Source: Candidatus Vecturithrix granuli
GTDB taxonomy: Bacteria; Moduliflexota; Moduliflexia; Moduliflexales; Moduliflexaceae
Direction: 5' to 3'
Assembly: GCA_000739535.1 (NCBI GenBank)
Contig: DF820479.1
Coordinates: 1 to 52,959, forward strand
DNA length: 52,959 bases
Shown: piece by piece, positions 31,078-52,959 of the stretch
Numbering within the stretch: position 1 is the stretch's first letter
Layout: each line of letters begins with the position of its first letter
Translations under genes and position numbers: made by a program
The notes under the pieces: generated by a model
Database searches by the model: none
Seen by the model: only the letters and a program-made list of their open reading frames with translations
Told to the model about the DNA's origin: nothing

Positions 31078-32249
31078 TGCAGAGATTCCGGTCTGGTCAC
31101 GACATCATGCTACTTGTGAAATTACGACTCGAACGTCTTTGGACAGGCACGATATTGGCTGCTGTGGTGTTGGGATCCCTTCTTTCGCCGGGGGTCAATG
31201 TCGTTGCCCAGGTTCCGCAGTATATTCCCTATTCTTTTGCTGATATCGCCGAAAAGGTTCAACCCTGTGTGGTGAACATCAGCACCGCTCAAATTATTAC
31301 CCCGATTATTAAGCCTGGTCAAGATTTTCAGGGCGATGAGTTTTTCGAACGGTTTTCCGGGGAGAATGCTCCAACACATCGGTTTCAGCGTCGGAGTCTG
31401 GGATCAGGCGTTATCCTGGACCAGCACGGTTATATCATCACGAATAACCATGTGATCGAACATGCTGATCAAATTAAAGTGAAACTTTCGAATGAAGAAG
31501 AATTTGAGGCAGAACTAATCGGGAGAGATGTAAAAACTGATATTGCGTTGATCAAAATTCCGATAGAACAACAAGAACTCCCTGTCGCCAATCTTGGCGA
31601 TTCTGATAGTATGCGGGTCGGCGATTGGGTAATCGCCGTCGGCAATCCGTATGGCTTAACTCATACGGTCACGGCCGGAATTATCAGCGCGAAAGGCCGC
31701 GTTATCGGAGGTCCCTATGACGAGTTTCTGCAGACCGATGCCTCTATTAATCCAGGTAACAGCGGCGGCCCTTTGATTAACATCAAAGGTGAAATTGTCG
31801 GGATTAATACCGCCATTTTCACGAATGTCCAGGGGAATTATATGGCTCAGGGTATTGGATTTGCCATTCCCAGCAATCTCGTTCTGCGTATTGTTCATGA
31901 TTTGCAGTTGTATGGAAAAGTCCGGCGAGGCTGGGTTGGCATCGTAATTCAGGAAGTTACCCCGGAGATTGCCGATTCTTTAAACCTGCCGGATGCCCGA
32001 GGTGCATTGGTCTCTAATATCATTCCCGGCGGGCCTGCTGAAGAAGCCGGGGTCATCCGCGGGGATGTGGTATTAAGCTTCAATGGGATCGACATTCAGC
32101 ACTCCATTGACCTGCCTAAAATTGCTGCTGAATGTGAACCAGGGTCAAGTGGTACGCTGATAGTCAACCGTGATGGCGAACAAATGACCATCCACCTCAC
32201 CTTAAGGGAATTTCCCGAGCCTGAAAGTTTCCCTTCTCCTACAGAATAA
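31077..32249 (+). CDS. htrA: HtrA/DegP-family periplasmic serine protease
   Basis: This 390-residue trypsin-like protease has a signal peptide or anchor (about 20-45), a protease domain with catalytic His125 (IITNNHVIEHA), Asp155 (KTDIALIKI) and Ser229 (DASINPGNSGGPLI), and one PDZ domain (about 280-375, RGALVSNIIPGGPAEEAGV). With only one PDZ domain it is nearer DegS/HhoB in layout. It could be the quality-control protease of the stress regulon or the protease that starts anti-sigma cleavage. Its start overlaps the RseB-like stop (TAATG), so the four genes are translationally linked. Confidence 0.94.
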   Translation: MQRFRSGHDIMLLVKLRLERLWTGTILAAVVLGSLLSPGVNVVAQVPQYIPYSFADIAEKVQPCVVNISTAQIITPIIKPGQDFQGDEFFERFSGENAPTHRFQRRSLGSGVILDQHGYIITNNHVIEHADQIKVKLSNEEEFEAELIGRDVKTDIALIKIPIEQQELPVANLGDSDSMRVGDWVIAVGNPYGLTHTVTAGIISAKGRVIGGPYDEFLQTDASINPGNSGGPLINIKGEIVGINTAIFTNVQGNYMAQGIGFAIPSNLVLRIVHDLQLYGKVRRGWVGIVIQEVTPEIADSLNLPDARGALVSNIIPGGPAEEAGVIRGDVVLSFNGIDIQHSIDLPKIAAECEPGSSGTLIVNRDGEQMTIHLTLREFPEPESFPSPTE

Positions 32250-35804: not shown

Positions 35805-38171
35805 ATGCTAAATTACACTCATATTGCTGAACAGAGTGTAAACAGAAAGCGCTCGTGGCGAATTTTAGTGTTTGCGCTAATCCTCCTGTTTTGCCCTTCC
35901 CTCTCCTTTGCCTATTTGTTCCAGGATGAAGAACGCGGTACCTCGCTCTCAATTTTTGGTATCGGTGGGATCATGCGCTTGAATTATGCCTGGGTGGATG
36001 GCGATGACGCACTCTATGAAGACAGCGACGATGGTTTTCGTGAAGGTTTCGATCATCGCGAATTTCTCTCGCTCACCGCCTCCGGAATTTTGTTTCGGGA
36101 CTACACGCTTGATGGCGAAGTGCATTATAATCAGGATGATGACCCGGACTGGAACTTTTTTGCCAAACTGGCCCGGGATGAAAGTTATCTCATGTTTGGC
36201 GACCAACCCAATATTTTTGAAGAACCCTATTTCACGCGTTATACCCTGCCATTTCGCGGACTCACTCTGCATGTAGAAACCGATCATATTGGCGTGACGA
36301 CGTTTGGAGCCATTACCAGAGGGGCTGTCTCAAAAGAAGAAATTACGCCCGATGGCACGTCTGGGCCGTATCGTCTGTCGAAAATTCCTGTAGTGCCTGG
36401 AAGCGACATTGTCACCATCGAAATCCGCAATCAAAATGATTCCAACCAGGTTCTCGAAATGCGCCCGCAGACTCGCAATGTTGATTATACCATTGACTAT
36501 GATACCGGTGAAATCACCTTTAGCCAACCGATTGACTCGGAGACCTTTGGCGGAGATCGGGTTGTGATTGTCGTGATTTACAGGGATGAAGAAGAGTCTT
36601 CCTCTTTTAAGACCGCGATTCTTGGCTCGCGCCTGACCGTGTCTCCCACAGATTGGGGAACTCTTGGCGTAACCTACGTCTCTGAATTTGAGCGCGAGCC
36701 ATCGCTTTCTGATGGGTTCGAGCGGCGTCAGGAAATCTATGGGATTGACACCGCATTGAAGATCGGCGATATGTGGCGATTGACGACCGAATACGCTTTT
36801 AGTCAGCAGCAAACCGTTAATGGCGACTCCCCGGATCCGTCCCAATCCGTCCTGGCAAAACTGGATGGCAAGGTGGGTGAACAGGTGGATATTCATGGTA
36901 AGTATCAACGTGTGGAACGCGAGTTTCTTACTTTTGCGAATCCCGATATTGATACGAACGAACAAGAACTTGAGTTGGTCGGAATCTATGCTTATCGCCC
37001 CGATCACTCCGTGAAAATCGGATATAGCTTTTTACAGGATAATCTGCCCCAGGAATCGGAAGAACCGACCACGACCACTCATCGCCCTTATATAGCCTGG
37101 GATGCCCGTGTACGCGAGCGGACCCAACTCTTTTCCAAATATGAGTATATCCAGAAAACCGACGACTGGCATCCGGAAGAAACAGACGACCAGACCCATA
37201 GCCTGCTGTTCGGTGGGATTCAGGAGTTTTCAACTGTGCCGGTCCTGAAAAAATTGAGCGTACGCGGAGAATACCAGGTCAATGATTTTGAAGACAAGAC
37301 CGATCAGGAAGCCGATACCTTGACCCATCTGTTTGGCCTGCGAGCCACAACAGAACCAGCGCGTGAAATTATTGCGTATGCCGAGCAGCGGGAACGCTTG
37401 ATTCACGATAAAGATCTCAAGGAGAATACCGAACGACAGGATATTTCCGAATTTGGCCTCGAACTGAATCGCTGGCAGCGTTTTTCGGCCCAATCCAAAT
37501 ACCAATATCGCGCAGTCCACGATTTATTGCACGACGAACAGGAATCGGAACGACATACCGTGATTCTGGGGGCCAAATATCAGCCCTTCGATGTCGTGAC
37601 AACCTCCGGCAAATTAGAACTGCGCGACGAAACCGTGTTTGCTTCAGCCGCGGCCGAGCGGGAAGAAAGTTCTTCCCGTTCGCTGAATACGGAAGCGCGC
37701 CTGGCTTATACTCCGAAAAAAGATCTGACCTTTCGAATCAAATACGAATATGATTATGAAGAAGATCGTCTCGAGGCTGCCAATAAAACCCGCGAAGATG
37801 AAACGGAATTTCGATTCAATTATGCCTTTGATAAGCGCAAAACCAGATTAACAGGCATTATCAAAATCGAACGCGATTTACTCGAAGCGCCGCCGACCCC
37901 GAAAACCAAAACCCGTACGACAACCTATCTGGCAAATGCCGCGCGGCAGTTGACCGATCGCTGGGACATCCTGGCCCAGTATAAACGCGAGATGGTCGAA
38001 CTCTCGGCCGACAATACCCGCGAGGATATTCTTGCGGAAATCGGCTGTAAATTAGGACGTTTTATCACCTTTGCCGGCGGCTATCAGCATTCCCGGTTTC
38101 AGGACAATGACGAGCCGGAGAACGATTATACCGCTAACTCAGTGTATCTTAAACTGATTGGGAAGTTATAA
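35805..38171 (+). CDS. Large outer-membrane beta-barrel protein of surface module
   Basis: This protein of about 788 residues from the ATG at 35805 (the frame opens at 35757) has a signal peptide (VFALILLFCPSLSFA). Residues about 30-180 form a porin-like start (IMRLNYAWVDGDDALYEDSD). A short domain at about 190-260 carries VVPGSDIVTIEIRNQND and RNVDYTIDYDTGEITFSQPI, a motif I associate with surface proteins carrying SdrD/DUF11 repeats. The rest, to residue 788, is a long run of alternating charged amphipathic strands (KIGYSFLQDN, FSKYEYIQKTDD, EFRFNYAFDK) ending in YLKLIGKL. It looks like a barrel of perhaps 24-30 strands. I infer it serves the two surface proteins encoded next, possibly as an anchor or export pore. 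Confidence 0.75.
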   Translation: MLNYTHIAEQSVNRKRSWRILVFALILLFCPSLSFAYLFQDEERGTSLSIFGIGGIMRLNYAWVDGDDALYEDSDDGFREGFDHREFLSLTASGILFRDYTLDGEVHYNQDDDPDWNFFAKLARDESYLMFGDQPNIFEEPYFTRYTLPFRGLTLHVETDHIGVTTFGAITRGAVSKEEITPDGTSGPYRLSKIPVVPGSDIVTIEIRNQNDSNQVLEMRPQTRNVDYTIDYDTGEITFSQPIDSETFGGDRVVIVVIYRDEEESSSFKTAILGSRLTVSPTDWGTLGVTYVSEFEREPSLSDGFERRQEIYGIDTALKIGDMWRLTTEYAFSQQQTVNGDSPDPSQSVLAKLDGKVGEQVDIHGKYQRVEREFLTFANPDIDTNEQELELVGIYAYRPDHSVKIGYSFLQDNLPQESEEPTTTTHRPYIAWDARVRERTQLFSKYEYIQKTDDWHPEETDDQTHSLLFGGIQEFSTVPVLKKLSVRGEYQVNDFEDKTDQEADTLTHLFGLRATTEPAREIIAYAEQRERLIHDKDLKENTERQDISEFGLELNRWQRFSAQSKYQYRAVHDLLHDEQESERHTVILGAKYQPFDVVTTSGKLELRDETVFASAAAEREESSSRSLNTEARLAYTPKKDLTFRIKYEYDYEEDRLEAANKTREDETEFRFNYAFDKRKTRLTGIIKIERDLLEAPPTPKTKTRTTTYLANAARQLTDRWDILAQYKREMVELSADNTREDILAEIGCKLGRFITFAGGYQHSRFQDNDEPENDYTANSVYLKLIGKL

Positions 38172-38259
38172 GTGAGCGAAAGTGAACTATAGTGAACTAA
38201 AGTTGAACAGTTCTCCTCAAATTTTGTCCCTTTCGTCCCTTTAGTCCCTTGCGCTCACT
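38171..38259. repeat. Inverted-end repeat with parallel iterated arms
   Basis: AGTGAGCG (38171-38178) and CGCTCACT (38252-38259) form the ends. Inside the left end three 10-base units of the form AAAGTGAACT follow one another; inside the right end, read on the other strand, three units of the form AAAGGGACG follow. It fills the gap between the barrel and LysM genes. Confidence 0.65.
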
Positions 38260-38275
38260 CCCAACTTTTTTCCGT

Positions 38276-39016
38276 ATGAAAAATATTACGGCATTGTTCA
38301 GCATTGTGAGTGTAGGCTTTCTGCTGTTCGTCGCAGAACCCACGGCGACCCGGGCCGCTGCCCCTGCTCCCGTTCTGGCAGAGTCCTGTCCCTATACGGT
38401 CGTAAAAGGAGATACCCTCATCAAAATCGCCGCCGCTCTGACCGGCAGTTCCCGGAATTACCCTCTGATTATCGCATTCAACGCGTTGACCTCAGACCGG
38501 ATTGCCCCAGGACAGGTCTTACATATTCCTTTTGATCTGCTGTTGCCCAAGCATCGTTGTCAACCTGAAGCGACGCCCGTTCCTACGCCGCTGCCGAAAA
38601 TCACTGTAGCGGATGAGCCGGCCCCGGCGCCCGAACCGATGGTGATTCCCATTCCAACCCTGACGCCGCCGCCCAAAGACAAAAAATTTCTGGCTGAAAT
38701 TGAAGCCTTCGTCTTTGAAGACGCAAACGGCAATCGCAGATTTGACGAGGGCGAACCCGGGGTGGCCGGAGTCAAGCTGATTTTAGTCAAAGGCCGCGTT
38801 GACCAGCCGCCCTTGATTGGAACCATCGGCGTCACCAATGAAAACGGAAAATATGTCTTTAAAAACGTCGAACCTGGCCCCCGCGCGGTGGGGTTGTATG
38901 AGACCACGCTGCCTCCCGAAGTCGTGTTAATCTCGGAATCTACGGTGGTCGTTACTGTCCCTGAAGGCGGCAAAAGTTACGTCACCTTTGCCGGGAAAAT
39001 TGAGAAAGATGAATAG
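38276..39016 (+). CDS. Exported LysM-SdrD_B surface protein
   Basis: This 246-residue protein has a signal peptide (cleavage near TRAAA). A LysM domain follows (about 40-95: CPYTVVKGDTLIKIAAALTG, NYPLIIAFNAL, IAPGQVLHIPF), then a Pro-rich linker and one SdrD_B/Cna_B-like domain with the calcium-type loop FEDANGNRRFDEGEPGVAG and VTNENGKYVFKNVEPGPR. LysM binds peptidoglycan, so the protein probably sits on the cell wall. Both domains closely resemble the LysM and SdrD_B modules in the giant protein downstream. The ATG at 38276 has no good ribosome site. Confidence 0.85.
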   Translation: MKNITALFSIVSVGFLLFVAEPTATRAAAPAPVLAESCPYTVVKGDTLIKIAAALTGSSRNYPLIIAFNALTSDRIAPGQVLHIPFDLLLPKHRCQPEATPVPTPLPKITVADEPAPAPEPMVIPIPTLTPPPKDKKFLAEIEAFVFEDANGNRRFDEGEPGVAGVKLILVKGRVDQPPLIGTIGVTNENGKYVFKNVEPGPRAVGLYETTLPPEVVLISESTVVVTVPEGGKSYVTFAGKIEKDE

Positions 39017-39100
39017 AACTACAAAGGTCTCAGATTTCCCAGATTTGGAGTAACGTGAGTATGCTCATTCGAGAAATTTGTCAAATTTGTGGCTAATTTT

Positions 39101-39238
39101 ACTTTGTCAAGTTTGTGAAACTACACGGAGAAGAGATAAGAAAAGGATGTTCTGGGAAAATTGCTCACCCCCCAGTATCCTGTTCTTATCTCTTCTCCGT
39201 GTAGTTATCCATGGTGCAAGAAGTGAACTTGACAAAGT
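39101..39238. repeat. Long-hairpin element C
   Basis: Terminal arms ACTTTGTCAAGTT (39101-39113) and AACTTGACAAAGT (39226-39238) enclose a perfect 24-bp stem (39119-39142/39183-39206, beginning AACTACACGGAGAAGA). Two inner stems follow, AGGAT/ATCCT (39144-39148/39177-39181) and CTGGG/CCCAG (39152-39156/39171-39175). No target duplication is obvious. It has no coding capacity and resembles a non-autonomous mobile element or a very stable RNA hairpin. Confidence 0.75.
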
Positions 39239-39243
39239 AGAAT

Positions 39244-39344
39244 TACATGATTTCGGAAATAAGTACACATGAAACGCGACGAAGAAACCAGGATTTTTCC
39301 TAAAAACCTGGTTTATCGGGTAGAGTTATTTCTGAAATCATGCA
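39244..39344. mobile_element. MITE-A copy 2
   Basis: Ends TACATGATTTCGGAAATAA and the complement of TGCATGATTTCAGAAATAA (39244-39262/39326-39344), matching the ends of the element at 33846. The interior differs, with a palindrome AAACCAGG/CCTGGTTT (39286-39314). I see no target duplication. It lies six bases after element C, in the 555-base gap before the giant gene; the rest of that gap to 39544 shows no supported gene. Confidence 0.65.
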
Positions 39345-39551
39345 CTAACTCCAGGCAAGAACCGGAAGCCACTGATAAGAGCGGATGCACAGGGATGTCA
39401 CGTGTATTTTTCACTATATCAACACTTGACAGAGATTGGAGCATAGAGAGAGATATATACATAAACGCAGATTCCCGAGATATCTCAGACTCATCTGCGA
39501 AATCCGAACAATCATGCGGTTGCCTTACATAAAAAAACCTGATCATAAAAA

Positions 39552-39567
39552 GACCTGAGAGGAGGTC
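39552..39567 (+). promoter_or_regulatory. Hairpin over ribosome-binding site of giant gene
   Basis: GACCT (39552-39556) can pair with AGGTC (39563-39567); the right arm overlaps the Shine-Dalgarno sequence GGAGG (39561-39565) of the giant gene. It is a small hairpin, so an effect on translation is only possible. Confidence 0.35.
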
Positions 39568-39571
39568 CATC

Positions 39572-42500
39572 ATGAACAAGAACACCTATTCTTTGCGCAC
39601 CATTATTGCCGTTACGGCGGCAGCTCTGATGTATCTGGCCGTTGTGAGCCTGCTTTCTCAAAGATCCGGAATTCTGGCGTCTGAATCCGTTGCAAAGCCG
39701 ACCGTCATGCTGCTGGCCGTCGTTCCGGATTGCGAGTCTCAGGGGAAAGTCACGATTTGTCATAACCCGAACAATAATCCTCCGGGCGTTGAAATCTGCG
39801 TGGCGCCCCAGGCGGTTGAAGCACATTTGCGTAATAATGCCCGGCTGGGCGACTATTTAGGCCCCTGTCAGCCCTCCACACCCACGCCCACGCCTGAACC
39901 CGCAGAAACGCCAACCGCTACGCCGACACCTGCACCCGGGATCACCCCAACCGCTACGCCGACGCCTGCGCCCGGGATCACCCCAACTGCTACGCCGACG
40001 CCTGCACCCGGGATCACCCCAACCGCTACGCCGACACCTGCCCCCGGGATCACCCCAACCGCTACGCCGACACCTGCACCCGGGATCACCCCAACCGCTA
40101 CGCCGACACCTGCACCCGGGATCACCCCAACCGCTACGCCGACGCCTGCCCCCGGGATCACCCCAACCGCTACGCCGACGCCTGTACCCGAAGCGCGACT
40201 GGTAGATGTGATCGCTCCACAGCCGCAGCCAGGAGCCTGGGGCGCAACGCTTAGTTATACCTTTCAGGTAATCAATCAGGGCAATGTAGAAGATACGTTT
40301 CGTCTGACCTTAGAGGCCGAATACAATCTGTCAACCGGGCGTATCCCTTCGCAAATCCGCCTGGCCCCTGGTGCGACAACCGCTATAACCACCTCACTGA
40401 CATTACCACTGACAGGGACATTCCCCTCTATAGGCCTGACCCTGACCGCAGTTTCGACCTCCGATGCGTCCGTCGTCGATTCCGATACCGTAATCACATC
40501 ACTTGCCCCTCCGGCCCCGGCGCTTGAATTGACCAAAACCGCGGATAAACAGGTGCTTGCTCCCGGGGAACAGGTCAAATATACCTTACGTTATCGCAAT
40601 ATTGGCAACGTGCCTCTGCAAAATCTCGCGCTCGAAGATGCGCTGCCGGCCCAACTGCACTTTGTTGAAAGTTCGCTGCCGATTCAGATGACAAATGAAA
40701 ACAGGGTACGCATCCTTTTAGAACCGCTGCTGTTGCAGAATCAAGGCGGAACCGTCAGTATCACCGCGCGGGTTGCTGAGGACGTTGATCTGCGAGGATC
40801 AATTGTGAATACGGCCGTATTGAGCGCTGATGGCCTCCCGCAGCCAGTAACCGCTCAGGCGCGATCCTCCATCGAAGTCCCCAAATTGCTGATTCAAAAA
40901 TCGGTCAATAAGACGGAAGTGTCCACCGGCGATATTCTGCTCTATACCATCACCATCAGCAACACCGGCAACGGCACTGCCCGCGAGGTTACAGTGCTTG
41001 ACTCGCTGCCCTCTGTTTTGCGCTATGTTGTTGGTTCAGCGGTGCTCAATGCGATGCGTACGGAGAATCCGGAAACCCGGACTGAGAGTCAGTATGTCTG
41101 GAATCTCGGAGACCTTCGCCCCGGCGATGACATAATTCTGCGTTACCAGGCAACCGTGATGACAGGCGCGAAATCCGGCACCTACAAAAATAAGGCCCTG
41201 GCGCGAGCGCAAGACAGCAGCGGACGAACCCTCTCGACCGGCCCCGCCAGCGTGAGTATTCGTATTGAAAAGGGAATACACACTTTTCCGGCCGAAATTC
41301 ACGGCCTGGTGTTCGAAGACCAAAATGGCGACGGCTCTCATGACGCCGGCGAACCAGGAATTCCGCAAGTTGATGTGCTCTGGATTAGAGGACGGGAAAC
41401 TCAGGCCACAGATGAAGACGGCGAGTTCTTCTTCCGCGATGTGGACCCCGGGCCCCAGGCGATTGGTTTATATGAAACCAGTCTGCCTGAAGGCTATCGT
41501 CTGACCACTGAATCAACGGTCATGCTCACCGCCAATGAAGGCGCAATTGAATATGTTGAATTCGGCGTACAGTCCGATCGCGCTGAACTCACGGCCGTGG
41601 TCTATCATGACCTGAATCGCAACAGCCTCTATGACGACGGCGAACCGGGCATCGAAGGCGTGCAACTGCGCGTGGATGACGTGCTGCGTCTTGACGACCT
41701 GTTCAGCATGACCACGAATAGCGAGGGCAAAGCGATTGCACAAGCCCTCCCACCAAGTTCATTTTCCTTGATTTGTGATGTGCAAACTCTGCCGCCGCAA
41801 TTTGTTTTAACGACAAGTGTGTCTGTTCCTGTCACCCTGGCTGCCAGAGAATCGCAAACCGTCTATTTTGCTGCCGCGCACAAACCCGGAACGATCCGCG
41901 GCGCAGTTTTCCGCGATCTGAACGAAAATGGCCGTGTGGATTCGAATGAGCAGGGCGAACCCACTATTACACTGAGCTTGACGGATGGCAGCCGGCGCGA
42001 GACCCTGACGAACGATGTGGGGCAATATGCCTTTGAAACGCTTGATCCCGGAATTTATACGCTGCAACTGCCCACGCATGCGTTACCGCTCAATTCGTAT
42101 CTGACTGTAAATCCGGTGCAGAGCGTGCTGGTCGAACCAGGTCAGGAATACATCATCAATTGGGGTCTTGCCGTACGGACAGTTCCGGAAATGACTCCGA
42201 CCCCAACCGAAACGCCGACAGCCATCGTTCCGAGTCCGACTATCAGTCCGACTGCCAGTCCGACCAGTCCGCCTATTACTCCGACTCCAACGCCGACTAC
42301 TGCCCCAACCCCTGAAATAGCAGAAGATTTCTGCGTCTATACCGTCAAATCCGGGGACACGCTTTCGCGCATTGCCGCGCAGTTCACCGGCAAAGCCGGC
42401 AACTATCAGAAAATTATGGTGTTCAATGCCTTGAGTTCTGACGCCATCCGGATCGGCGACTCCTTGAAAATTCCAACCACGTTGTTATTAGAGCAATATC

Positions 42501-45500
42501 AGTCCTGTCAATTCGAGCCGTCAACGCCGACGCCGACTCCAGTTGAATTCGGCGCGGCCGAAGGCCGCATTTATTACGATGCCAACGCCAACGGCCGCTA
42601 CGACGAGGGCCTTGACATCCCGATTCCGGACGTGACTGTCAATATTCGCAGCGACATCAAAACCACTGTCACTGATGAAAACGGGTACTATCGTTTCGAC
42701 AATATGGAACCCGGCGCGCACGTGGTCTGGATCGATCCCCAAACGCTGCCGGAACCGTATCGCCCGCTTGACGACCAGCCGATCATCAAAATCGTGATCT
42801 ATCCTGGCGGTACGGCTGCGACCGCTGTCGCGGACTTTATCATCCTCAAAGCCTGGATTTACGAAGAAACCGTCGTAGAAGGCGTGGTCTGCCTGGATCT
42901 TAACAACAACGGCGACTGCGATCTGGGCGAACCCGGCATCGTCGGTGTGACAATCTATGACCCGGTAGTGCTGAATGTCACAGTCGAACAGACAGATCCG
43001 GGAAAATGCCTGGGGAACAATAATCCGTTGCCGGTGTGTACTGCGGCTGGTCAGCCGTTGCCGATCAGTTTGTGCGGCAGCGTCACATTTACTGTAACAA
43101 TCACTAATACAGGAGCACACGCAGCAACCAACATGACTGTGTCAAACAGCATGCCATCCGGCTTTACGCCATCCCCCCAGACGTGGACGATTGATCAACT
43201 TGATTCCAATACATCTCTCTCTCATGATTTCACCTATACCGCCGATTGTTCCGTGGTCTCCGGCGACAATGTCACGACAATTACCTATACGGACACGTTT
43301 GATGGACAGGTGTATTCGCCGCCGATTCCGAATCAATCCTTTACTGTTGCGCCGGGTGCGATTACGCTGACCAAAATGGCTATCGCGGTGAATGGAGACC
43401 CCATTCATGATCCGATTACCGGCGCAGAAATTGCTGAAACATCCGAGCCGCCAGCTGGGATCGACGATGTGATCACTTGGCGCATTCGCGTCGCCAGCAC
43501 TGGCTATGGTCACGTCACCAATGCGGTCGTCACCGAAACGCTTGATCCGGGCCTGTCCTTTACCGATGGCACGCCGGGAACAAGTCAAACCTTCACGCTC
43601 ACGAAAACCGATCTTGCGCCGCGCCCGAGTGCAACTACCGAACCTCCGGGCAACTCCTGTACTGGAGTGGCTTGGTGTGAGGATATTTTCGTCGAAACCA
43701 CCGTGAATTTATGTCAAGATTTGCGGAATAATGTCTCGGCCGAATGGGGCTGTGATGCAACCCCTTGTGTTCCTGCTGTGACTGCCCAGTCCAGCGTGGA
43801 TTTTCTGACGCGCTTTCCGTATCTGGAATATGAGCCGCAAGATATGAACCTGACTGTCCCATACTGCGTAACGGATCCACAAACCGCGGAGTATACGCTG
43901 ACTGTTCAGAACAGCGGCACGGGATTTGCGGCCGCCGGCGCGCAAATTGCCGTGGTGATTCCCTTCGATGTCACGGTGACGTCTTCAAGCATTAACACCG
44001 ATCCAGCGCAGCCGGCCAATGTGACTTATGATGGCGCGGGATTTACTATTCCGATCCAAGTCGAAGCCAATGGTTCTCCGGGCGATACTGTGACCATCAA
44101 CTACACTGTGTCGTATCCTCGCGCCGGTTCCATTGATTGGTGCGGCGAAACTGGCAACAATCAATCCGGGACCTTATTTTGGCAACCGACGTATCAAGAT
44201 CAATGCGGCAATCCGTTTACACCACCGGTCGAAAGCAGCGCGTATTCCGTGACCGTCGCGGCGCAGCCGAAACCGAGTGTCACGGTCTCGAAATCGTGCT
44301 GGCTGTACCCCAGCGGCGAAAATATCGCCCCGCTGATTTCCGTCACCGATACGGCGCAAACCGTGCGCTGTCGAATTGATGTGACGTATGCCGGCCCAAC
44401 CGACTGCGGCGCGGGTGCCGCGTCTGACCTCAGGGTGGATGACGATTATCCGGATAGCTGGACTTTTGAGGGCTTTGTGAATGCAACACCGCCGCCATAT
44501 ACCGATACTGGCAGTATACTGACCTGGACAATTCCTGGCAGCGAAATTGACAATGGCGACACCTTCAGCTATCTGCAAGAATTTACCATTCCGCCGATGG
44601 GGCAGGATGATGTGTGCTTGAGCTGCGGCGAAGAGTGGCAGAACACGGTCAGCGTTAGCGGCGCCGATTGTTGTGACTGTCCGTTAAGCGTGACGCCGGC
44701 CGTTGTAACTACGAACGTCGAATGCGAAAATCCGGTCGGATTAGGATTATTATCCGAACGCGTTACCCCTGCGGTGACAGAAATCTGTAAAGAGGCCATC
44801 ACCTTGACCACGCGCTACACCTTCAGCGGAGCAGACTGGAACGCTGTTGATTGGGCTGCGGGTACGGTCGTATTTACCGAACGCAATGACAATCAGATGG
44901 TATTGGAAGGCGATCCGCAAATCAGCCTGGATCAAGGCGCAAACTGGTGTTCGCTCCCGGCTACTGCCTATACGGATAATACACCCACCGGAGGCACGCT
45001 GGTCATCAATGATGTCACCTCTTGCACGGGAACCGGCGCCATCGGCAATGGCACAACTTTGGACGTACGCTATGATTTGCGAGCCTCGCTGAATTCCGAA
45101 CCGCAATGCGCGGCGCAAGAGTCGTTTTATGATTACGCCAGCCTGGAAGTGAGCGGATTGGCGATTCCGACCGGTTCGAATTACTGTCCCGGAACGATTG
45201 CCGACAGCATCCGCGTGGATGATGCGGTGCTGGTGACACTGAACGGGTCGGCCATGACCGTGGACATCGAGTGGAACCCCACCCCGCCGAACGGCATTGT
45301 CGGGCCTTGCGGCGAATACGATGCGGTGATCACTATCACGAAAACCTCAACAGAACCAGCCTATGATGCCGTTTTGTTCTTAGAAAACGCGAATTACGAT
45401 ACTCTAACTGTGACCGGCTGTTCCGGCGATTTTACGCCCACAAATCAACCGAATTGCGGCGTCGGCGTTCTGCCTGACGCCGCCACGCACGTTGCTGGCG

Positions 45501-48500
45501 GCTATGCCTTTCACTTTGGCGATATTCTTGAGGAAGGGGTGCGGCAAGCCACGATCAACGTGCACGTGCAGGGGCGCTGCTTCACCGGCGATCCTGATTT
45601 AGCCGTGCATCTGGGCTATAACGACGGCTGCACCGATGAAGAACCCGACCCGGCCAGTCTTGATTATATGACGCGACGCTGCCAGACTGCCGAAGATCGC
45701 GTGGTGGGCAAGAGCCTGGAATCGAAGGTGTTGGCGACAAAATTCCCGGAACAAGTTTACGCGCAATGGGATTCGACGACAAACACCTACAAACCCGCGC
45801 AATGGACGATCACGGTTGTGAATACCGGCACCGGCTCTGCGTTCAACGTGGAAGTGGTGGAAACCCTGGGAAACGATCTGGCGTATCTTGGTTCATTCTG
45901 GGATAAAGCCTATACGGATATTCAGACGTATCCGAATAGGCTGCCTGATAACACGACCGAAATTAATGGCGCGTCGTATGTGATCAAGGAACTGAAGCCG
46001 GGAGAATCTCGCAAACTCGTTTTTCAAGCGACCGTGAACGGCTGTCAGGATACCACAAATAAGGTGCTCGTGCGGGTGCGCTGCCTCGATATGGCAATGG
46101 ATCCGAATATCAGCAATCCTGAAGACGAATGGTGCGATTTTAAAAAGGGAAGTTCAGTCGTGAAATTTCCGCCGACCGATTTGGTTGTAACGACCAAATT
46201 TTCAAACCCCATTGATACCTGTGATGTGGCCAATGTGGTGATTACCGCCCGCAATGCCGGTTTGACGCCCATCTATGACGTGCGGCTGAACCAAGTGTTG
46301 CCGGCCGGATTAATTTATCAGGCCGGTCAAACCAGCTATTGGGTTGAAACAGCAACAACCGGCGCGCCGCCGGCCTTACCTGAACCACCGACCGCTTCAA
46401 CCTGGAAGGGTGTCGGAAGCACGGAACCGGGAAGCCCGATTCCGGCAGGCTATGGCGCAGTCCTTGTACCGCCCAAAGCCGATCCTCCGGCTGGCAGCAG
46501 CTCGTATTATTGGAATGCTGACACCGCGTCTGAACCTGAATTAGAAAACGCCTTCACCACCTTGAATCCGGGCGAAACAATTTACATCGCCTTTCAGGTG
46601 TATGTGAATTGCGAGTTTCCGCAAGGCGATTTGCGTTTCTATGCCGCGTTTGATAAATGTGGGGCGTCCACAATTGCTTCCTCTTCGGAAAGCATTTTCC
46701 GGGTGACGCCGAATAAACCGCGGATTGCCATCACGAAAACGCCCGCGGAACAGACGATTAGCTGCGGTTCGCCGGTGGAATGGATCATCGAAGTAACCAA
46801 TAGCGCGACCGGCACCGCGGGCTTGCCGGTTCCTGCACGCTATCTCCGCATTACCGATGCCTGGGGCGGCGCGTACACCTTTGTCGGATTCGATTTCTGG
46901 AATGGGAGCGCATGGGAGTCATACCCAACGTTATCGGGCACTAATGCCATCACCTGGGAGATGTTCGATCTGCAACCCGATGAAACGCGGCGTTTTCGCC
47001 TACGCGCGACGTTCAATGACTGCGACGGAACGTTCGAAAACCTTGTCACCTCAGAAGTGCGCTGTCTACTGCCGGGTATTATTCCAGATAATGATCCTGG
47101 GACAACGGATCCGGGCTGTCTGGTTTGTGAAAGTGGCACTGACCCATGTCCACCGCCCACGGAGGCAAATGCTATAAATGAAATACCGGAGTTGAGCATT
47201 GATCTCATAATCGACCCCCTGCAAGCTTGCACGGAAGATGTGCCGATTCAAATCGAGTTGGAAAACACCAGTATCCTCGCGCTGATCAAAGATCTCGATC
47301 TCGATATTCAATTGCCGGAGAATGTCAGCTATGTGCCTAACAGCGCTGCCGTAGATAGTAATCCGGCGTTGGATAGCGTCTTGACGTTCTATACTGATGG
47401 CGATGGTTATGATCATGTCGTCTTTTACAACAACGATTATACTACCACAAACCTGCCGGATCTGTCTCCCGGTAATAGTGTGACAATCACTTTCAACGTG
47501 GATATTGAGTGTGACGCCAGCGGTTATTTCTACGCCACGCCGCAGTTTTATGACTGCTGCGATGACGATCCGGTGCAAGGAGAGAGCCGCCTGGATACCA
47601 CCTGGGAATATCCGGATTTGCGTGTGGTAAAAACCAATACTGGCGGCCCATTTGACTGTGGCGACGAAGTTGCGTGGACAATTACAGTGTATAATGACGG
47701 CCCGGTTGTAGCGGAAATGATTCGCTTGACGGATACGTATGGCGCCGGTCTTATTTTTGTTGGCGGCTCCGCTACCGCAGTCACCTCGGCGACAACACCC
47801 AATTTTTATGAAACGAACCCATCAGACACGCTGATTTTGTGGGATAGTACAAATAGAACGATTATCTGGGAAATCGGCAGTTTAGCGGCCGGAGGGCAGC
47901 GCACATATACGCTGCTCACTGAGCTGGGCAGCGGGGTAGACTGTTCAGGGGTAAATAGAGAGAATGAAGTGGTTGCCACCTGGCATTGTTCTACGACCGA
48001 TACGGCTGATGAAGACCCGCAAGGAAATGAAGCCGATTGTCTTGGAGGCACAGAGACTGTGACCGAAGATGTCAACGTTACGCCAATCGTGAATGTGAGC
48101 GCCATCATTACTCCGACTCAAATCGCCTACTGTGCGCTCGATACGGTTGTGACGGTTGATATAACCGTCCCTGAAACTTCCAATACGGTCTATAATCTCG
48201 ATGCGACCATTACTCTGAATACTATACCAGCAGGCAGATTACAATTCCATGATGGCGGCGCATTTAACATCGAGGCAATCCCATCCACAGGCGCGACCGG
48301 CCTTGCGACAGGACCGATGCCGGGAGAAGGCGTTACATCTTTCTCATTCAACAATACCTATCCTGTTCTGGGTGGTCATCTTGCTGACTCAGTGCTTCCC
48401 GGCACAACAATTCGTATCACCTTTAATGCCTCCTCATCCTGTTTTGGCGGTGGCGATATCAGCGTCCAACTGGCGTATGACGACTGTTGTACCAATCATT

Positions 48501-51500
48501 ATACCCCTACGGCGACATCAACAACTGTTACGCCTCAGTATCCTGATTTACAAATTACGATTGTCAAGGATCCGAATACCCGCGATGTGAAGTGCGGCGA
48601 AGACATAAATTATACGATTACCGTGAGGAATGCCGGTCCTGTCACTGCCAGTTATGGGCGGATCAGGACGAATCTGCCCGAATGGCTGGTTTACCAATCT
48701 TCAACTGCTCCTGTCACGAATCCGGTATTACCACCAGATCATCTTTCCGGACCGGGGTGTGATCCGAATGGCGCGCCTGTTTGTGCAGGGGCGAATTGCG
48801 TCGAAGGATTTTCCAATGGCAATATCTACTGGGAAGTCAAAGACCTGCCTTCAGGCGGAACCTGGCAAACTGTTCTGACTGTTCGTTATACTCCGCCTGC
48901 TATCCCGGATTGTGATAATGGCGACCGAATGTTAACGGTTGCGACCCAATATGGCTGCCCGCCAGATCTTGTCAGTTGGCCCTTTGACGCCAATGCCTGT
49001 ACGAATGATGGTACTGGATGCAGCTTGTATAACAGCCGCAGCGCGACAAATTCGAATGACATCCCTGATTTGCAGATCAGCAGCGCTTCTGCGGTGGTTC
49101 TTGACGAATGCGGCAGCGGAACCGTCACCGTGACCATCAGTAATCCGCGCGGCGCGAATGGCGGCAGTAACGCCACTGATTTTGTGGCTCGGGTCACTGG
49201 CGATCTCACCGGAGAAATCACGACATCGCTGGCAGCCGGAGCTTCGGCGACCATCAATATTCCGGTCACAACGCTGCAACAGTGTGGGGATCGGACATTT
49301 ACCGTCACTGTTGATGCTGACGGTGATATTTGTGAATGTCTTGAAACCAATAACAGCACATCAGGCACGGTGACAATTCCCTGTCCGACGCTGGAAACTT
49401 ATAAAACCCTGCTAACACCGGTGACAGTAGAACCGTGCGAGCCGGTTCAGTACGAAGTCGTTATTCGCAATACCGGCGCGGCGGGCACGACCTTGAATTG
49501 GGCCGCGAATGCCGTGATTTTTGAGGAAACGCTTTCGGCCGGCTGGGTGTTTGATTCGACCGACAGTGTGAGCGGCGCGATTGCTATCGGCGATGTGACC
49601 AGCCCTGCCGCTGCTGCGACCGGATTGATTCAATGGCGGGCTGCAAATGCGATTACGCTGAACGGCCAGCAATCCTTTACCATTCGATATACCATCCATG
49701 CTACCACGCCGGTTTGCGGGGACTCGTTCACCAATAGCGCCATAGTCCACGCCTGGCAGCATTGCGGCGATGAAGTTACCGTCACCGCTGCCGCTGCGAA
49801 CGCCGTAACTGTTCAATGTCCGGCCATCACGCTCACAAAAACCTATGACATTCCAGATGACGAGGTCGAACCCTGTGAAGAGGTCACATACACTGTCCGG
49901 TTACAAAATTCTGGAACAGGGCCTTTATACTTCAATCCGGGAGAAGTCGTAGCCACTGATAGTATTCCGGTGAACTGGGAATTTGTCCGTACCGATTCCC
50001 TGACTGTCGCAGGAGTGAATCAGCTTGCTAATTTTGCTCGCCCGACAGAACCAACAGTTGGTCCATCAGCTTTGACCTGGCAGCTCAATGCCGGTGCAGC
50101 CCAGCTTGTGCTGCAACCAACTGAGGAACTCGTATTGACTTATGTCGTGAGCGCCGTTACGACAGAAGGGAATACAGAGGTATGCGCCACAACCTTCCAG
50201 AATGAGATTAATGTGCGCGGCGAAGATAGCTGCGGATCGGAATATCAGTCAAGCGCCCGGGCGGATGAACTCAGGGTGTTATGCCCGGGGTTGAACGTGG
50301 AGAAGACTCATAACATTCCGGATCATACGATTGAGCCGTGCGACGAGGTGATTTATACCGTGACCGTCATCAATTCGGGACCGGGTAATTTGTATTTGAA
50401 TCCGGGCGAGGTGATAGTGGAAGATTCGATTCCTGTAAACTGGGAATTTGTTCGAACTGTTTCGCTGGCTGTCGCAGGCGAGGATCGAAGTCCCAACTTT
50501 GAATCCCCAGCAGAGCCAACGGTACCAACGAACGAACCTTTACCGCTGATCTGGCGATTGAATGACAGTTCAGTCCAACTAATGTTGCAACCAGATCAGG
50601 TGCTTGAGTTGATCTATATCGTGAGGCCAATTACGACAGATGACAGTTTAGATATCTGCGACGCGGATCCCTTTGAGAACGAAGCCACCGTGTCTGCTCA
50701 GGATTCCTGCGGTACGACCTACTCTGCAACCGATCGATCTGACCCAATAGAGGTGATTTGTCCGACCTTACATGTGGTTAAAACTGGCAATACCGTCAAT
50801 ATTCAACCGTGTGAGATAACCGATAATCCGCTGACCCCTGACATTACCGAACCGCTGACTTATACGATTGAGATCAGCAATAGCGGCGATCCGCAATCCA
50901 CGATCCGGTTAGATCGGATCACTGATGAGCTTGATTCAGGGTGGTATGTTGTAAGCAGTTCGGTTGAGCCGGCCGGGATTGTGCTCACGCAGCCAGCGGA
51001 TGGCGATACTGGAACTTTGGAGTGGACATTCGATCCCGCAACCGCGCTCATCACTGCGCCTGGAGATGTGGTAACGATCACTCTCGCCATTGCGATGGAT
51101 ACGACGATTGCTCCGGATGCCTGCGATGCGGCGTACCGCTTTGCCAATGAGGTCAATGTTGAAGCTTCTGACCTGTGTGGCATCAGTCTTGAACTTGATC
51201 CGGAAAGCAACCCGGTCGCGGATGAAGTTGCTGTGGATTGCCCGGCCTTGAAGATCACCACTACCGCAGAACCGGAGCGAGATTTGGAGCCGTGTGAAGA
51301 AGTGACTTACACCATTCGCGTTGAAAATAGCGGCGGAGCGACGTCGCAGCTCTACGATATTCGTATTGGCGATGAGGTCCCGGAACATTTTCAGGTCATG
51401 GACATCCAGGTGAATCGCAATGGGACAGCTTTAGATCATGGTACGCATTATTCCGGAACAAACCCGGCGGATGCACCTTTGGCCGGCCCGCTAACTCTGG

Positions 51501-52959
51501 AATGGTTTTTTGATCAAGCCCTACCCGATCCGGTGCTGCTTGCTCCGGGCGAACTGATCACGATTCAGGTGACCGGCTATTTTGATTCGAACGCCTGTGA
51601 CACTGACTATACAATGGCTGTGGAAGCCTCGGCCGGAGCCGATCAGTGCGGCCTGTCAAAAAAACCGACCGAGGATAGCATTTTGGAAGTTTCAAGTGCA
51701 GCGATCATCTGTCCGGGGTTAATCGCGACGAAAACCGACGACATTGATGATAATACGGTGGAACCGTGTGAGGAGATCACTTATACGGTGACGCTGACGA
51801 ATCCGGCGAGTGCGACCGGCCCATTATATATCAATCCGGACGAAGTTGTGGTCAGCGATGCGATTCCGGTCAACTGGGAGTTCGTGCGCACGGTGGACGC
51901 GACTGCGGCTGGGAATCCGGTCGAACTGGTGAATTTCACGCGGCCGGCCGAACCGGCCGATGGCGCGGTGCCTCTGACCTGGACCTATACCGGAGTAAAC
52001 CCGTTGGTCTTGCAGCCAGGGGAGAGTTTCATCTTGCGCTATGTGATTCAGGCGATCACCACGGATGACAATCAGGAGGTGTGCGGCATCAAGTTTCAGA
52101 ATACGGCGACGGTCCGAGCGCGTGATCTCTGCGGAACGCCGTACACTAATACAACTCGGGCGGACTTGATTACGGTGCTATGTCCGTCCGTGCTCGTCAC
52201 AAAGACCGATAACATTCCGGATTATACGGTGGAGCCGTGCGAAGAGGTGACCTACACCGCGACATTGAGAAACACCGGCGCGGAAGATTTGTATCTGTAT
52301 CCCGGAGCTGTGGTGATGACGGACGGCATTCCGGAGAACTGGGAGTTTGTGCGCACTGTCAGTGTGACCGTCGCCGGAGACGATCACCTTGGGAGTTTTG
52401 ACGTGCCTGCTGAATCGACCGCCGGACCAGACGTCTTGAACTGGACCATCAGGGATGGAGCGGATCCATTGGTTGTCGCCCCTGATGAGACGGTCGAGGT
52501 GATGTATGTGGTACGCGCAGTGACCACTGATCTAAACCAGGAAGTGTGCGCCGCCGCTTTCCAAAACAGCGTGACCATGCAGGCGCAGGATCTGTGCGGC
52601 ACGGTGTACGCTGGAACTGATCAGGCCGATAAATTGACGGTGTTATGTCCGGCGATGGTTGTCACAAAGACCGACGACATTGATGATGACACAGTGGAGC
52701 CGTGCGAAGACGTGACTTACACGGTAACGCTGACGAATCCGGGAAGCGCAACCGGGCCCTTGTACATCAATCCGGACGAAGTTGTGGTCAGCGATGCGAT
52801 TCCGGTCAACTGGGAGTTCGTACGCACGGTGGACGCGACTGCGGCTGGGAATCCGGTCGAACTGGTGAATCTCACGCGGCCGGCCGAACCGACCGATGGC
52901 GCGGTGCCTCTGACCTGGACCTATACCGGAGTAAACCCGTTGGTCTTGCAGCCAGGGGA
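39572..52959 (+). CDS. Giant secreted DUF11/SdrD/LysM surface protein (3' end outside window)
   Basis: One open frame runs from the ATG at 39572 (GAGGAGGT six bases upstream) to the last base, at least 4,462 codons; I checked the frame at several points. Order: signal peptide (1-37); small Cys domain with KVTICHNPNNNPPGVEIC and AHLRNNARLGDYLGPC (about 52-96); ATPTPAPGITPT repeats (116-199); two DUF11 domains (about 318-560); three SdrD_B domains with DQNGDGSHDAGEPG-type loops (about 573-870); Thr/Pro linker; LysM (about 920-970, YTVKSGDTLSRIAAQFTG); two more SdrD_B-like domains (about 995-1130); then about twenty DUF11-type repeats of about 155 residues with the recurring VEPCEEVTYTV start. 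It should be an exported rigid stalk or adhesin held at the wall by LysM. Confidence 0.93.
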   Translation, partial: MNKNTYSLRTIIAVTAAALMYLAVVSLLSQRSGILASESVAKPTVMLLAVVPDCESQGKVTICHNPNNNPPGVEICVAPQAVEAHLRNNARLGDYLGPCQPSTPTPTPEPAETPTATPTPAPGITPTATPTPAPGITPTATPTPAPGITPTATPTPAPGITPTATPTPAPGITPTATPTPAPGITPTATPTPAPGITPTATPTPVPEARLVDVIAPQPQPGAWGATLSYTFQVINQGNVEDTFRLTLEAEYNLSTGRIPSQIRLAPGATTAITTSLTLPLTGTFPSIGLTLTAVSTSDASVVDSDTVITSLAPPAPALELTKTADKQVLAPGEQVKYTLRYRNIGNVPLQNLALEDALPAQLHFVESSLPIQMTNENRVRILLEPLLLQNQGGTVSITARVAEDVDLRGSIVNTAVLSADGLPQPVTAQARSSIEVPKLLIQKSVNKTEVSTGDILLYTITISNTGNGTAREVTVLDSLPSVLRYVVGSAVLNAMRTENPETRTESQYVWNLGDLRPGDDIILRYQATVMTGAKSGTYKNKALARAQDSSGRTLSTGPASVSIRIEKGIHTFPAEIHGLVFEDQNGDGSHDAGEPGIPQVDVLWIRGRETQATDEDGEFFFRDVDPGPQAIGLYETSLPEGYRLTTESTVMLTANEGAIEYVEFGVQSDRAELTAVVYHDLNRNSLYDDGEPGIEGVQLRVDDVLRLDDLFSMTTNSEGKAIAQALPPSSFSLICDVQTLPPQFVLTTSVSVPVTLAARESQTVYFAAAHKPGTIRGAVFRDLNENGRVDSNEQGEPTITLSLTDGSRRETLTNDVGQYAFETLDPGIYTLQLPTHALPLNSYLTVNPVQSVLVEPGQEYIINWGLAVRTVPEMTPTPTETPTAIVPSPTISPTASPTSPPITPTPTPTTAPTPEIAEDFCVYTVKSGDTLSRIAAQFTGKAGNYQKIMVFNALSSDAIRIGDSLKIPTTLLLEQYQSCQFEPSTPTPTPVEFGAAEGRIYYDANANGRYDEGLDIPIPDVTVNIRSDIKTTVTDENGYYRFDNMEPGAHVVWIDPQTLPEPYRPLDDQPIIKIVIYPGGTAATAVADFIILKAWIYEETVVEGVVCLDLNNNGDCDLGEPGIVGVTIYDPVVLNVTVEQTDPGKCLGNNNPLPVCTAAGQPLPISLCGSVTFTVTITNTGAHAATNMTVSNSMPSGFTPSPQTWTIDQLDSNTSLSHDFTYTADCSVVSGDNVTTITYTDTFDGQVYSPPIPNQSFTVAPGAITLTKMAIAVNGDPIHDPITGAEIAETSEPPAGIDDVITWRIRVASTGYGHVTNAVVTETLDPGLSFTDGTPGTSQTFTLTKTDLAPRPSATTEPPGNSCTGVAWCEDIFVETTVNLCQDLRNNVSAEWGCDATPCVPAVTAQSSVDFLTRFPYLEYEPQDMNLTVPYCVTDPQTAEYTLTVQNSGTGFAAAGAQIAVVIPFDVTVTSSSINTDPAQPANVTYDGAGFTIPIQVEANGSPGDTVTINYTVSYPRAGSIDWCGETGNNQSGTLFWQPTYQDQCGNPFTPPVESSAYSVTVAAQPKPSVTVSKSCWLYPSGENIAPLISVTDTAQTVRCRIDVTYAGPTDCGAGAASDLRVDDDYPDSWTFEGFVNATPPPYTDTGSILTWTIPGSEIDNGDTFSYLQEFTIPPMGQDDVCLSCGEEWQNTVSVSGADCCDCPLSVTPAVVTTNVECENPVGLGLLSERVTPAVTEICKEAITLTTRYTFSGADWNAVDWAAGTVVFTERNDNQMVLEGDPQISLDQGANWCSLPATAYTDNTPTGGTLVINDVTSCTGTGAIGNGTTLDVRYDLRASLNSEPQCAAQESFYDYASLEVSGLAIPTGSNYCPGTIADSIRVDDAVLVTLNGSAMTVDIEWNPTPPNGIVGPCGEYDAVITITKTSTEPAYDAVLFLENANYDTLTVTGCSGDFTPTNQPNCGVGVLPDAATHVAGGYAFHFGDILEEGVRQATINVHVQGRCFTGDPDLAVHLGYNDGCTDEEPDPASLDYMTRRCQTAEDRVVGKSLESKVLATKFPEQVYAQWDSTTNTYKPAQWTITVVNTGTGSAFNVEVVETLGNDLAYLGSFWDKAYTDIQTYPNRLPDNTTEINGASYVIKELKPGESRKLVFQATVNGCQDTTNKVLVRVRCLDMAMDPNISNPEDEWCDFKKGSSVVKFPPTDLVVTTKFSNPIDTCDVANVVITARNAGLTPIYDVRLNQVLPAGLIYQAGQTSYWVETATTGAPPALPEPPTASTWKGVGSTEPGSPIPAGYGAVLVPPKADPPAGSSSYYWNADTASEPELENAFTTLNPGETIYIAFQVYVNCEFPQGDLRFYAAFDKCGASTIASSSESIFRVTPNKPRIAITKTPAEQTISCGSPVEWIIEVTNSATGTAGLPVPARYLRITDAWGGAYTFVGFDFWNGSAWESYPTLSGTNAITWEMFDLQPDETRRFRLRATFNDCDGTFENLVTSEVRCLLPGIIPDNDPGTTDPGCLVCESGTDPCPPPTEANAINEIPELSIDLIIDPLQACTEDVPIQIELENTSILALIKDLDLDIQLPENVSYVPNSAAVDSNPALDSVLTFYTDGDGYDHVVFYNNDYTTTNLPDLSPGNSVTITFNVDIECDASGYFYATPQFYDCCDDDPVQGESRLDTTWEYPDLRVVKTNTGGPFDCGDEVAWTITVYNDGPVVAEMIRLTDTYGAGLIFVGGSATAVTSATTPNFYETNPSDTLILWDSTNRTIIWEIGSLAAGGQRTYTLLTELGSGVDCSGVNRENEVVATWHCSTTDTADEDPQGNEADCLGGTETVTEDVNVTPIVNVSAIITPTQIAYCALDTVVTVDITVPETSNTVYNLDATITLNTIPAGRLQFHDGGAFNIEAIPSTGATGLATGPMPGEGVTSFSFNNTYPVLGGHLADSVLPGTTIRITFNASSSCFGGGDISVQLAYDDCCTNHYTPTATSTTVTPQYPDLQITIVKDPNTRDVKCGEDINYTITVRNAGPVTASYGRIRTNLPEWLVYQSSTAPVTNPVLPPDHLSGPGCDPNGAPVCAGANCVEGFSNGNIYWEVKDLPSGGTWQTVLTVRYTPPAIPDCDNGDRMLTVATQYGCPPDLVSWPFDANACTNDGTGCSLYNSRSATNSNDIPDLQISSASAVVLDECGSGTVTVTISNPRGANGGSNATDFVARVTGDLTGEITTSLAAGASATINIPVTTLQQCGDRTFTVTVDADGDICECLETNNSTSGTVTIPCPTLETYKTLLTPVTVEPCEPVQYEVVIRNTGAAGTTLNWAANAVIFEETLSAGWVFDSTDSVSGAIAIGDVTSPAAAATGLIQWRAANAITLNGQQSFTIRYTIHATTPVCGDSFTNSAIVHAWQHCGDEVTVTAAAANAVTVQCPAITLTKTYDIPDDEVEPCEEVTYTVRLQNSGTGPLYFNPGEVVATDSIPVNWEFVRTDSLTVAGVNQLANFARPTEPTVGPSALTWQLNAGAAQLVLQPTEELVLTYVVSAVTTEGNTEVCATTFQNEINVRGEDSCGSEYQSSARADELRVLCPGLNVEKTHNIPDHTIEPCDEVIYTVTVINSGPGNLYLNPGEVIVEDSIPVNWEFVRTVSLAVAGEDRSPNFESPAEPTVPTNEPLPLIWRLNDSSVQLMLQPDQVLELIYIVRPITTDDSLDICDADPFENEATVSAQDSCGTTYSATDRSDPIEVICPTLHVVKTGNTVNIQPCEITDNPLTPDITEPLTYTIEISNSGDPQSTIRLDRITDELDSGWYVVSSSVEPAGIVLTQPADGDTGTLEWTFDPATALITAPGDVVTITLAIAMDTTIAPDACDAAYRFANEVNVEASDLCGISLELDPESNPVADEVAVDCPALKITTTAEPERDLEPCEEVTYTIRVENSGGATSQLYDIRIGDEVPEHFQVMDIQVNRNGTALDHGTHYSGTNPADAPLAGPLTLEWFFDQALPDPVLLAPGELITIQVTGYFDSNACDTDYTMAVEASAGADQCGLSKKPTEDSILEVSSAAIICPGLIATKTDDIDDNTVEPCEEITYTVTLTNPASATGPLYINPDEVVVSDAIPVNWEFVRTVDATAAGNPVELVNFTRPAEPADGAVPLTWTYTGVNPLVLQPGESFILRYVIQAITTDDNQEVCGIKFQNTATVRARDLCGTPYTNTTRADLITVLCPSVLVTKTDNIPDYTVEPCEEVTYTATLRNTGAEDLYLYPGAVVMTDGIPENWEFVRTVSVTVAGDDHLGSFDVPAESTAGPDVLNWTIRDGADPLVVAPDETVEVMYVVRAVTTDLNQEVCAAAFQNSVTMQAQDLCGTVYAGTDQADKLTVLCPAMVVTKTDDIDDDTVEPCEDVTYTVTLTNPGSATGPLYINPDEVVVSDAIPVNWEFVRTVDATAAGNPVELVNLTRPAEPTDGAVPLTWTYTGVNPLVLQPG
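39917..40168 (+). repeat. Seven 36-bp tandem coding repeats
   Basis: Seven consecutive copies of a 36-base unit encode ATPTPAPGITPT, with only third-position differences among them, followed by a partial eighth unit. They form an extended Pro/Thr linker in the giant protein. Copy number is likely to vary between strains through slippage. Confidence 0.92.
51758..52959 (+). repeat. Near-identical DUF11 repeats 936 bp apart
   Basis: The segment 51830-52023 recurs at 52766-52959 with only three differences in 194 bases. The period of 936 bases (312 codons) covers two DUF11 repeats, so an A-B-A arrangement is visible. The 72 bases just before the matching segment (51758-51829 against 52694-52765) differ at about 16 positions, mostly synonymous, so identity begins abruptly. 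The right limit lies outside the window. Confidence 0.88.

Follow-up and report, generated by a model that had tools for sequence, protein, structure and literature searches.

Gene organization at the locus

The window analyzed here is the whole stretch of 52,959 nucleotides at C5:1-52959 in the genome of Candidatus Vecturithrix granuli UASB270 (KSB3), which comprises 8,384,694 bp in 21 scaffolds. Its distal part carries three consecutive genes on the forward strand, and all of the open reading frames described for them in an initial annotation are present: a gene for an outer-membrane β-barrel protein of 788 amino acids (35805-38171), a gene for a small secreted protein of 246 amino acids with LysM and SdrD_B domains (38276-39016), and, from position 39572, the gene for a giant protein. 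The barrel gene is separated from the small gene by 104 nt and the small gene from the giant gene by 555 nt, and given these spacers the trio is no tight operon. The 555-nt gap contains three inverted repeats (39094-39342) with arms of 30, 20 and 17 nt, which are nested and adjacent and whose arms are 94-97% complementary; they may represent a small palindromic element with a mobile or regulatory character. A strong AGGAGG site precedes the giant gene, whose stop codon is followed by a stem resembling a terminator, with a run of T. An Rfam scan of the whole window gave no match.

The KSB3 bin UASB270 represents Gram-negative, anaerobic gliding filaments of wastewater granules, and the genome paper did not identify the gliding machine (PMC4312070). 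Directly downstream of the giant gene (C5:60991-64699) lie genes encoding DUF4388, Roadblock/LC7 and a small Ras/Arf-type GTPase, a set that resembles MglA-type polarity or gliding modules; the host itself glides. Upstream of the trio, positions 28344-32249 of the window encode an envelope-stress set composed of an ECF sigma factor, a zinc-finger anti-sigma factor, a MucB/RseB-like protein and a trypsin-PDZ (DegQ-type) protease. An Omp85 protein is also encoded in the genome, so that the insertion of barrels is possible.

Modules of the giant and small proteins

The giant gene (39572-52959, forward strand) is still open at the end of the window because of a 59-N assembly gap, after which the frame resumes and ends at C5:59707. 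The initial annotation had put the protein above 4,460 residues; it has 4,462 within the window and 6,711 as assembled with the remaining contig, where the exact length and the continuity of the frame depend on the gap. The repeat broken by the gap is about 60 residues short when compared with its twin at residues 4047-4203, and the gap accounts for only about 20 of these. Judged from this repeat, the assembled chain therefore probably falls short of the true length by some 40 residues.

The N-terminal hydrophobic signal segment (39572-39685) is the strongest hydrophobic stretch in the whole protein. It is followed at residues 59-99 (39746-39868) by the motif KVTICHNPNNNPPGVEICVAPQAVEAHLRNNARLGDYLGPC, which has Cys and His and for which no Pfam family was reported, and then by a Pro-Thr linker made of 8.5 copies of a 36-nt repeat (39872-40192). 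Two DUF11 domains (residues 318-419 and 439-556; 40523-41239) were recognized by Pfam and by home-made profiles, and beyond them Pfam placed three SdrD_B domains (residues ~570-870; 41279-42181), a LysM domain (residues 921-970; 42332-42481) that also has LysM matches in the PDB, and a fourth SdrD_B domain (residues ~995-1090; 42554-42841). The presence of LysM and SdrD_B near the N-terminus, as first annotated, was thus confirmed, with Pfam E-values of 1.8e-11 for LysM, 6.8e-37 for the four SdrD_B stretches, and 3e-45 and 1.8e-64 for DUF11 in the two parts that were scanned. The calcium-type loops named in the initial annotation are a general trait of the SdrD_B family and, for these domains, a prediction. 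LysM domains are also able to bind chitin-type glycans, so the LysM domain of the giant protein may have a role other than anchoring to the wall.

The small protein carries the same two modules (Pfam E-values of 1.3e-8 for LysM and 8.8e-9 for SdrD_B). Its SdrD_B domain shares 42% identity with the giant protein over 111 aligned positions (E 7e-26), and LysM and SdrD_B together share 38% over 178 positions (E 2e-23); these similarities fall on residues 570-672 and 921-1060 of the giant protein. The close likeness that the initial annotation had noticed between the two proteins is therefore borne out.

The stalk proper begins at residue 1167 and occupies the remainder of the window (residues 1167-4462; 43070-52957). 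Home-made profiles counted 28-29 DUF11-like domains over the whole giant protein. It had been suggested that there are about 20 repeats of about 155 residues; the repeats are real, but the period of 155 is exact only from residue 3271. In this later array, seven consecutive DUF11 repeats of 145-160 amino acids (49382-52645) each have four Cys at matching positions, and in all eight later-array repeats that were measured, which span the same range of lengths, the Cys residues lie at approximately positions 1, 19, 123 and 139. An AlphaFold2 model of two stalk repeats (pLDDT 87) showed Ig-type matches to integrin alpha, ClfA and SdrE (MSCRAMM). The very long fibre of Ig domains that was first proposed is supported. 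In the solved DUF11 domain (PDB 9IFR), residues of the Lys/Asp/Asn type form an isopeptide bond (PMC12617251), and a profile of the giant's stalk finds this structure by sequence (E 1.5e-4). Lys8, Asp48 and Asn129 do not vary among the aligned double repeats, and a regular-expression check, with Thr replacing Lys in two repeats, suggests that the full Lys-Asp-Asn set occurs in about half of the stalk domains. We also found a block of about 440 residues that is duplicated within the stalk with 78% amino acid and 81% nucleotide identity. Given that 131 of the 247 differences between the copies are at third positions, this result indicates that the gene was kept coding, and the stalk appears to have grown by duplication under coding constraint.

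After the assembly gap, the protein continues with further DUF11 domains and a Pro-Thr linker. Next come two domains of about 560 amino acids in tandem, with 28% identity between them, and the chain closes with three DUF11 domains. We built a profile from the two tandem domains and one relative, and it matched cellobiose 2-epimerases (E 3.3e-7) and alpha-1,6-mannanases (E 7e-4) in the PDB, although phmmer with the domains alone gave no match and the three-row profile was needed. By this similarity they are predicted (alpha/alpha)-toroids related to sugar enzymes, with cellobiose 2-epimerase the nearest. Clear relatives occur in only four other genomes among 385, and the one that was examined whole is a stand-alone protein of 699 amino acids, secreted by its look. 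The two toroids are the candidate for adhesion in the distal region, and they could also be enzymes rather than binders.

The C-terminus ends in ...REYPLEIKLLPE, and the best 19-residue hydropathy over the last 300 residues is 1.24. The initial annotation had pointed to the completed 3′ end as the place of a possible C-terminal anchor, sorting signal or barrel; no membrane segment, sorting signal, LPXTG-type signal or barrel was found there, and an NCBIfam scan of the C-terminal 1,617 amino acids lacked the type A sorting domain TIGR04183. A signal for an unrelated secretion system, which had been named as evidence against the proposal, was likewise not recognized. The two toroids lie in this part beyond the window, which the initial annotation did not cover.

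The barrel family and its partners

The barrel protein has a signal peptide that ends near SLSFA and a DYTIDYDTGEITF domain at about residues 190-262. An AlphaFold2 model calculated with 36 relatives is a large all-beta barrel of about 36 strands by count (mean pLDDT 74, pTM 0.65), and the top Foldseek matches are MtrB, LptD, the Deinococcus SlpA complex, FimD and SprA. As the best matches are themselves outer-membrane barrels, its assignment as an outer-membrane barrel stands. In a structural second look (VIA), TonB receptors, LptD and usher rows were tied, so that no nearer barrel family can be named. A BFVD fold search gave no useful match, and the barrel profile found nothing among the sequences of solved structures at E-values up to 10. 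In an hhalign comparison, the DYTIDY region and the strands that follow it aligned with SprA over 86 columns with a probability of 95%; the same region is also found in two other proteins, which are themselves touched weakly by the SprA model. In a tree of the family, the barrel of the window lies on a very long branch and its placement is unsure. We found no description of this family in the literature searched, and it represents the more general lead from this locus.

We scanned 84,980 species genomes and obtained 80 loci with relatives of the barrel from many phyla, of which 75 could be analyzed. DUF11 and/or SdrD_B occurred in the same chain as the barrel at 64 of the 75 loci, a same-strand DUF11 neighbour at 51, and either of these at 71. 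DUF11 was found in 78 of 206 open reading frames within two genes of the barrel, compared with 2 of 163 that were five or more genes away. These tallies carry two caveats: possession of a barrel was what selected the loci, and the giant protein supplied the seeds for the DUF11 and SdrD_B models, which were then extended with sequences of the neighbours. In four representative barrel chains, the domains were confirmed by Pfam. In a second sample of genomes, where the flanks extended only about 1,500 bases, DUF11 or SdrD_B was present at 9 of 21 barrel loci. The SdrD_B domain of the small protein also matches the SdrD_B domain adjoining the barrel in three fused chains in a search of 385 genomes. 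In the neighbourhoods collected around barrel loci, it had 39 matches, 34 of them in barrel chains; this tally is biased because the barrel was the criterion by which the set was gathered.

The usual order within a chain is DUF11, SdrD_B, barrel. The barrel proteins of Hellea reach 4,106-4,108 amino acids with 20-22 DUF11 domains, and in Geomonas and Lysobacter an OmpA wall-binding domain follows the barrel. Aerophobetes also has two cases of the split form, in which a DUF11 gene comes after the barrel gene; in both cases the contig breaks off inside the DUF11 gene. The link between barrel, SdrD_B, DUF11 and wall binding that was first drawn from the single locus is thus upheld by fusions or neighbours in nearly all of the analyzed homologues and by OmpA after the barrel in some. 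Two further arrangements were observed. In Rhodobacteraceae (locus L059, 3089-12163, and similar loci), a set of three genes recurs that encodes DUF11 proteins of about 170 and 880 amino acids and a DUF11-SdrD_B-barrel protein of about 1,910. At an Aerophobetes locus (L022, 3431-6760), the genes flanking the barrel gene encode a member of the PorV/PorQ family and a clostripain-like protease that carries a type A sorting tail, which hints that type IX-like components may cooperate with this kind of barrel in some phyla.

On the other hand, the exact trio, whose conservation in related genomes had been proposed as a check, is not conserved. The barrel had no match in the three available genomes of the same order, including G003, a KSB3 relative, which encodes DUF11 proteins of 3,174 and 1,958 amino acids. 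These two proteins are adjacent on contig C8 (L120, 790-16694), are secreted, and end in DYDGDGKADLAVWRPGDGTW-type repeats. Given that the barrel is missing from these three relatives and yet is fused to or adjoins DUF11 and SdrD_B elsewhere, it is the partnership of domains that is conserved.

Proposed function and comparison with known systems

We propose, with a probability of roughly 0.55, that the locus encodes a giant wall-anchored surface fibre with a barrel at its base and a carbohydrate-directed head. The N-terminal part of the giant protein would stay with the cell, with LysM gripping peptidoglycan, and the cross-linked stalk would extend roughly 100-130 nm outward. This estimate is scaled from GhlA of Litorilinea, a protein of 6,596 amino acids shown to form a fibre, with 49 DUF11 domains and a filament of about 180 nm (PMC13319060); these values correspond to about 3.7 nm per domain. 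The stalk is placed outside the cell, since a chain of 20-29 Ig domains exceeds the width of a periplasm. The C-terminal toroids may hold or act on polysaccharide of neighbouring cells, of the granule matrix or of food. The barrel would place the fibre in the outer membrane, as an exit or a collar, and the small LysM-SdrD_B protein might act in trans as the link from barrel to wall, a task that fused SdrD_B and OmpA domains may fulfil in relatives. Export via the barrel, a role of the barrel as a pore, the crossing of the outer membrane by the fibre, and its rigidity are features that we infer, and the barrel could serve a different substrate. A gliding filament that lives in granules would likely use such a fibre for attachment, for surface capture or in the formation of granules.

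This proposal has to be weighed against other arrangements. The giant protein may be a plain fibrillar adhesin that is anchored by its own signal or membrane segment and by LysM, with the barrel and the small protein as unrelated neighbours. The 555-nt gap with inverted repeats ahead of the giant gene, the absence of the trio from the three same-order relatives and the large DUF11 proteins without a barrel in G003 all point in this direction. However, 71 of the 75 analyzed homologues link the barrel to DUF11 and/or SdrD_B, and both modules of the small protein are common to the giant protein; a chance neighbourhood is therefore unlikely, and we regard this explanation as rather doubtful.

The fused relatives introduce another consideration, because SdrD_B and DUF11 stand ahead of a C-terminal barrel, as the periplasmic domains of many barrels do. 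DUF11 and SdrD_B chains might thus lie inside the cell and span the periplasm, joining the outer membrane to peptidoglycan, and the giant protein would be an oversized envelope protein. Such a tether would suit the OmpA domain that follows the barrel of some relatives and the LysM domains at this locus; tethers of the OmpA/SlpA type link the outer membrane to peptidoglycan. However, at the GhlA spacing, the roughly 29 DUF11 domains of the giant protein and the 20-22 of the Hellea proteins would measure 75-110 nm, far more than the usual periplasm, and heads that resemble sugar enzymes make little sense there, so that we consider a periplasmic location quite improbable. Less probable again is a grappling-hook organelle proper, in which the giant protein would form hook-tipped multimers like those of GhpA and GhlA and would serve the capture of prey or cells. 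The chains are similar in size (6,711 amino acids compared with 5,898 and 6,596), and DUF11 beads and an N-terminal hydrophobic stretch recur. However, in the available text GhlA is reported to lack a signal peptide and to have as many as 49 DUF11 domains, and LysM, SdrD_B, toroids and a barrel partner are not mentioned for it.

A bolder reading is that the barrel family might be an undescribed export-and-hold device for DUF11 fibres. A large barrel with a SprA-related inserted domain would pass chains of Ig-like, self-cross-linking DUF11 domains to the surface and retain their base; fused proteins would do so in cis, whereas Vecturithrix would rely on a LysM-SdrD_B adaptor acting in trans. 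We offer this only tentatively and consider it unlikely as it stands. If true, it would represent a type of secretion and anchoring that is spread over many bacterial phyla. DUF11 is common in the giant surface proteins of environmental bacteria, and we found no account of how these cross the outer membrane or are retained there. Since the parts are separate here and fused in relatives, the question can be tested in culturable hosts such as Geomonas and Sulfitobacter. In addition, the host is a gliding filament of anaerobic granules with a relative that causes bulking, and a very long surface stalk bearing carbohydrate-directed heads is a concrete candidate for a structure involved in granules or bulking.

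Among known systems, SprA, the type IX translocon, shares with the barrel protein the DYTIDYxxG domain and the next strands, and both are very large outer-membrane barrels. Membership of this genome in type IX was rejected: the full-length SprA model TIGR04189 was unmatched, leaving only the 86-column profile similarity, the PorV/PorQ family was found only below threshold (top score 45 bits, cut-off 90), and the giant protein lacks the type A sorting domain. The usher FimD resembles the barrel at 4.5 Å rmsd, below the other rows of the second look, and has an inserted beta domain and Ig-like cargo. However, its Z-score is tied with those of many barrels, no sequence similarity was found, and no chaperone or pilin genes were noticed near the trio. 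A type V autotransporter was also rejected, as passenger and barrel are in separate genes here (they are fused in most relatives), and Pfam listed no autotransporter beta-domain in the barrel at E-values up to 1. The staphylococcal Sdr/MSCRAMM proteins have SdrD_B modules and the Ig-type fold in common with the giant protein, but a sortase-anchored MSCRAMM was rejected because the giant protein has no LPXTG-type C-terminal anchor; the host is also diderm.

The initial annotation stated that no described system has exactly these three parts. This holds for the exact trio in the literature searched, where nothing combined DUF11, SdrD and LysM, or DUF11, outer membrane and SdrD. However, the statement overlooked two described kinds of system, the fibrillar adhesins with DUF11 domains and the grappling hooks GhpA and GhlA. 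As in the fibrillar adhesin class (PMC9210967), the giant protein is very long and has a repeated stalk, with 6,711 amino acids, 28-29 DUF11 and four SdrD_B domains; of the anchor feature of this class, it has LysM as a putative wall binder, and a C-terminal anchor was not found. The DUF11 (CLIPPER) adhesin B9T28_05395 of Acinetobacter silvestris (PMC12617251; PDB 9IFR) likewise has a stalk of repeated DUF11 domains, with the isopeptide Lys/Asp/Asn residues common to both. Its anchor of the peptidoglycan type is OmpA, whereas the putative one of the Vecturithrix protein is LysM, and its 2,129 amino acids run from an adhesive N-terminal part to an anchoring C-terminal part, the reverse of the order in the 6,711 amino acids here. 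Only the Vecturithrix system has toroids, extra Cys residues, and separate genes for a barrel and a LysM-SdrD_B protein. The giant protein is also like GhpA of Aureispira, a grappling-hook protein of 5,898 amino acids, and GhlA in having a chain of around 6,000 residues, and it shares DUF11 beads and an N-terminal hydrophobic segment with GhlA, as far as the available text describes these proteins (PMC13319060). The interpretation as a surface system is supported, with a putative role for the barrel, and the locus belongs with the giant DUF11 fibres.
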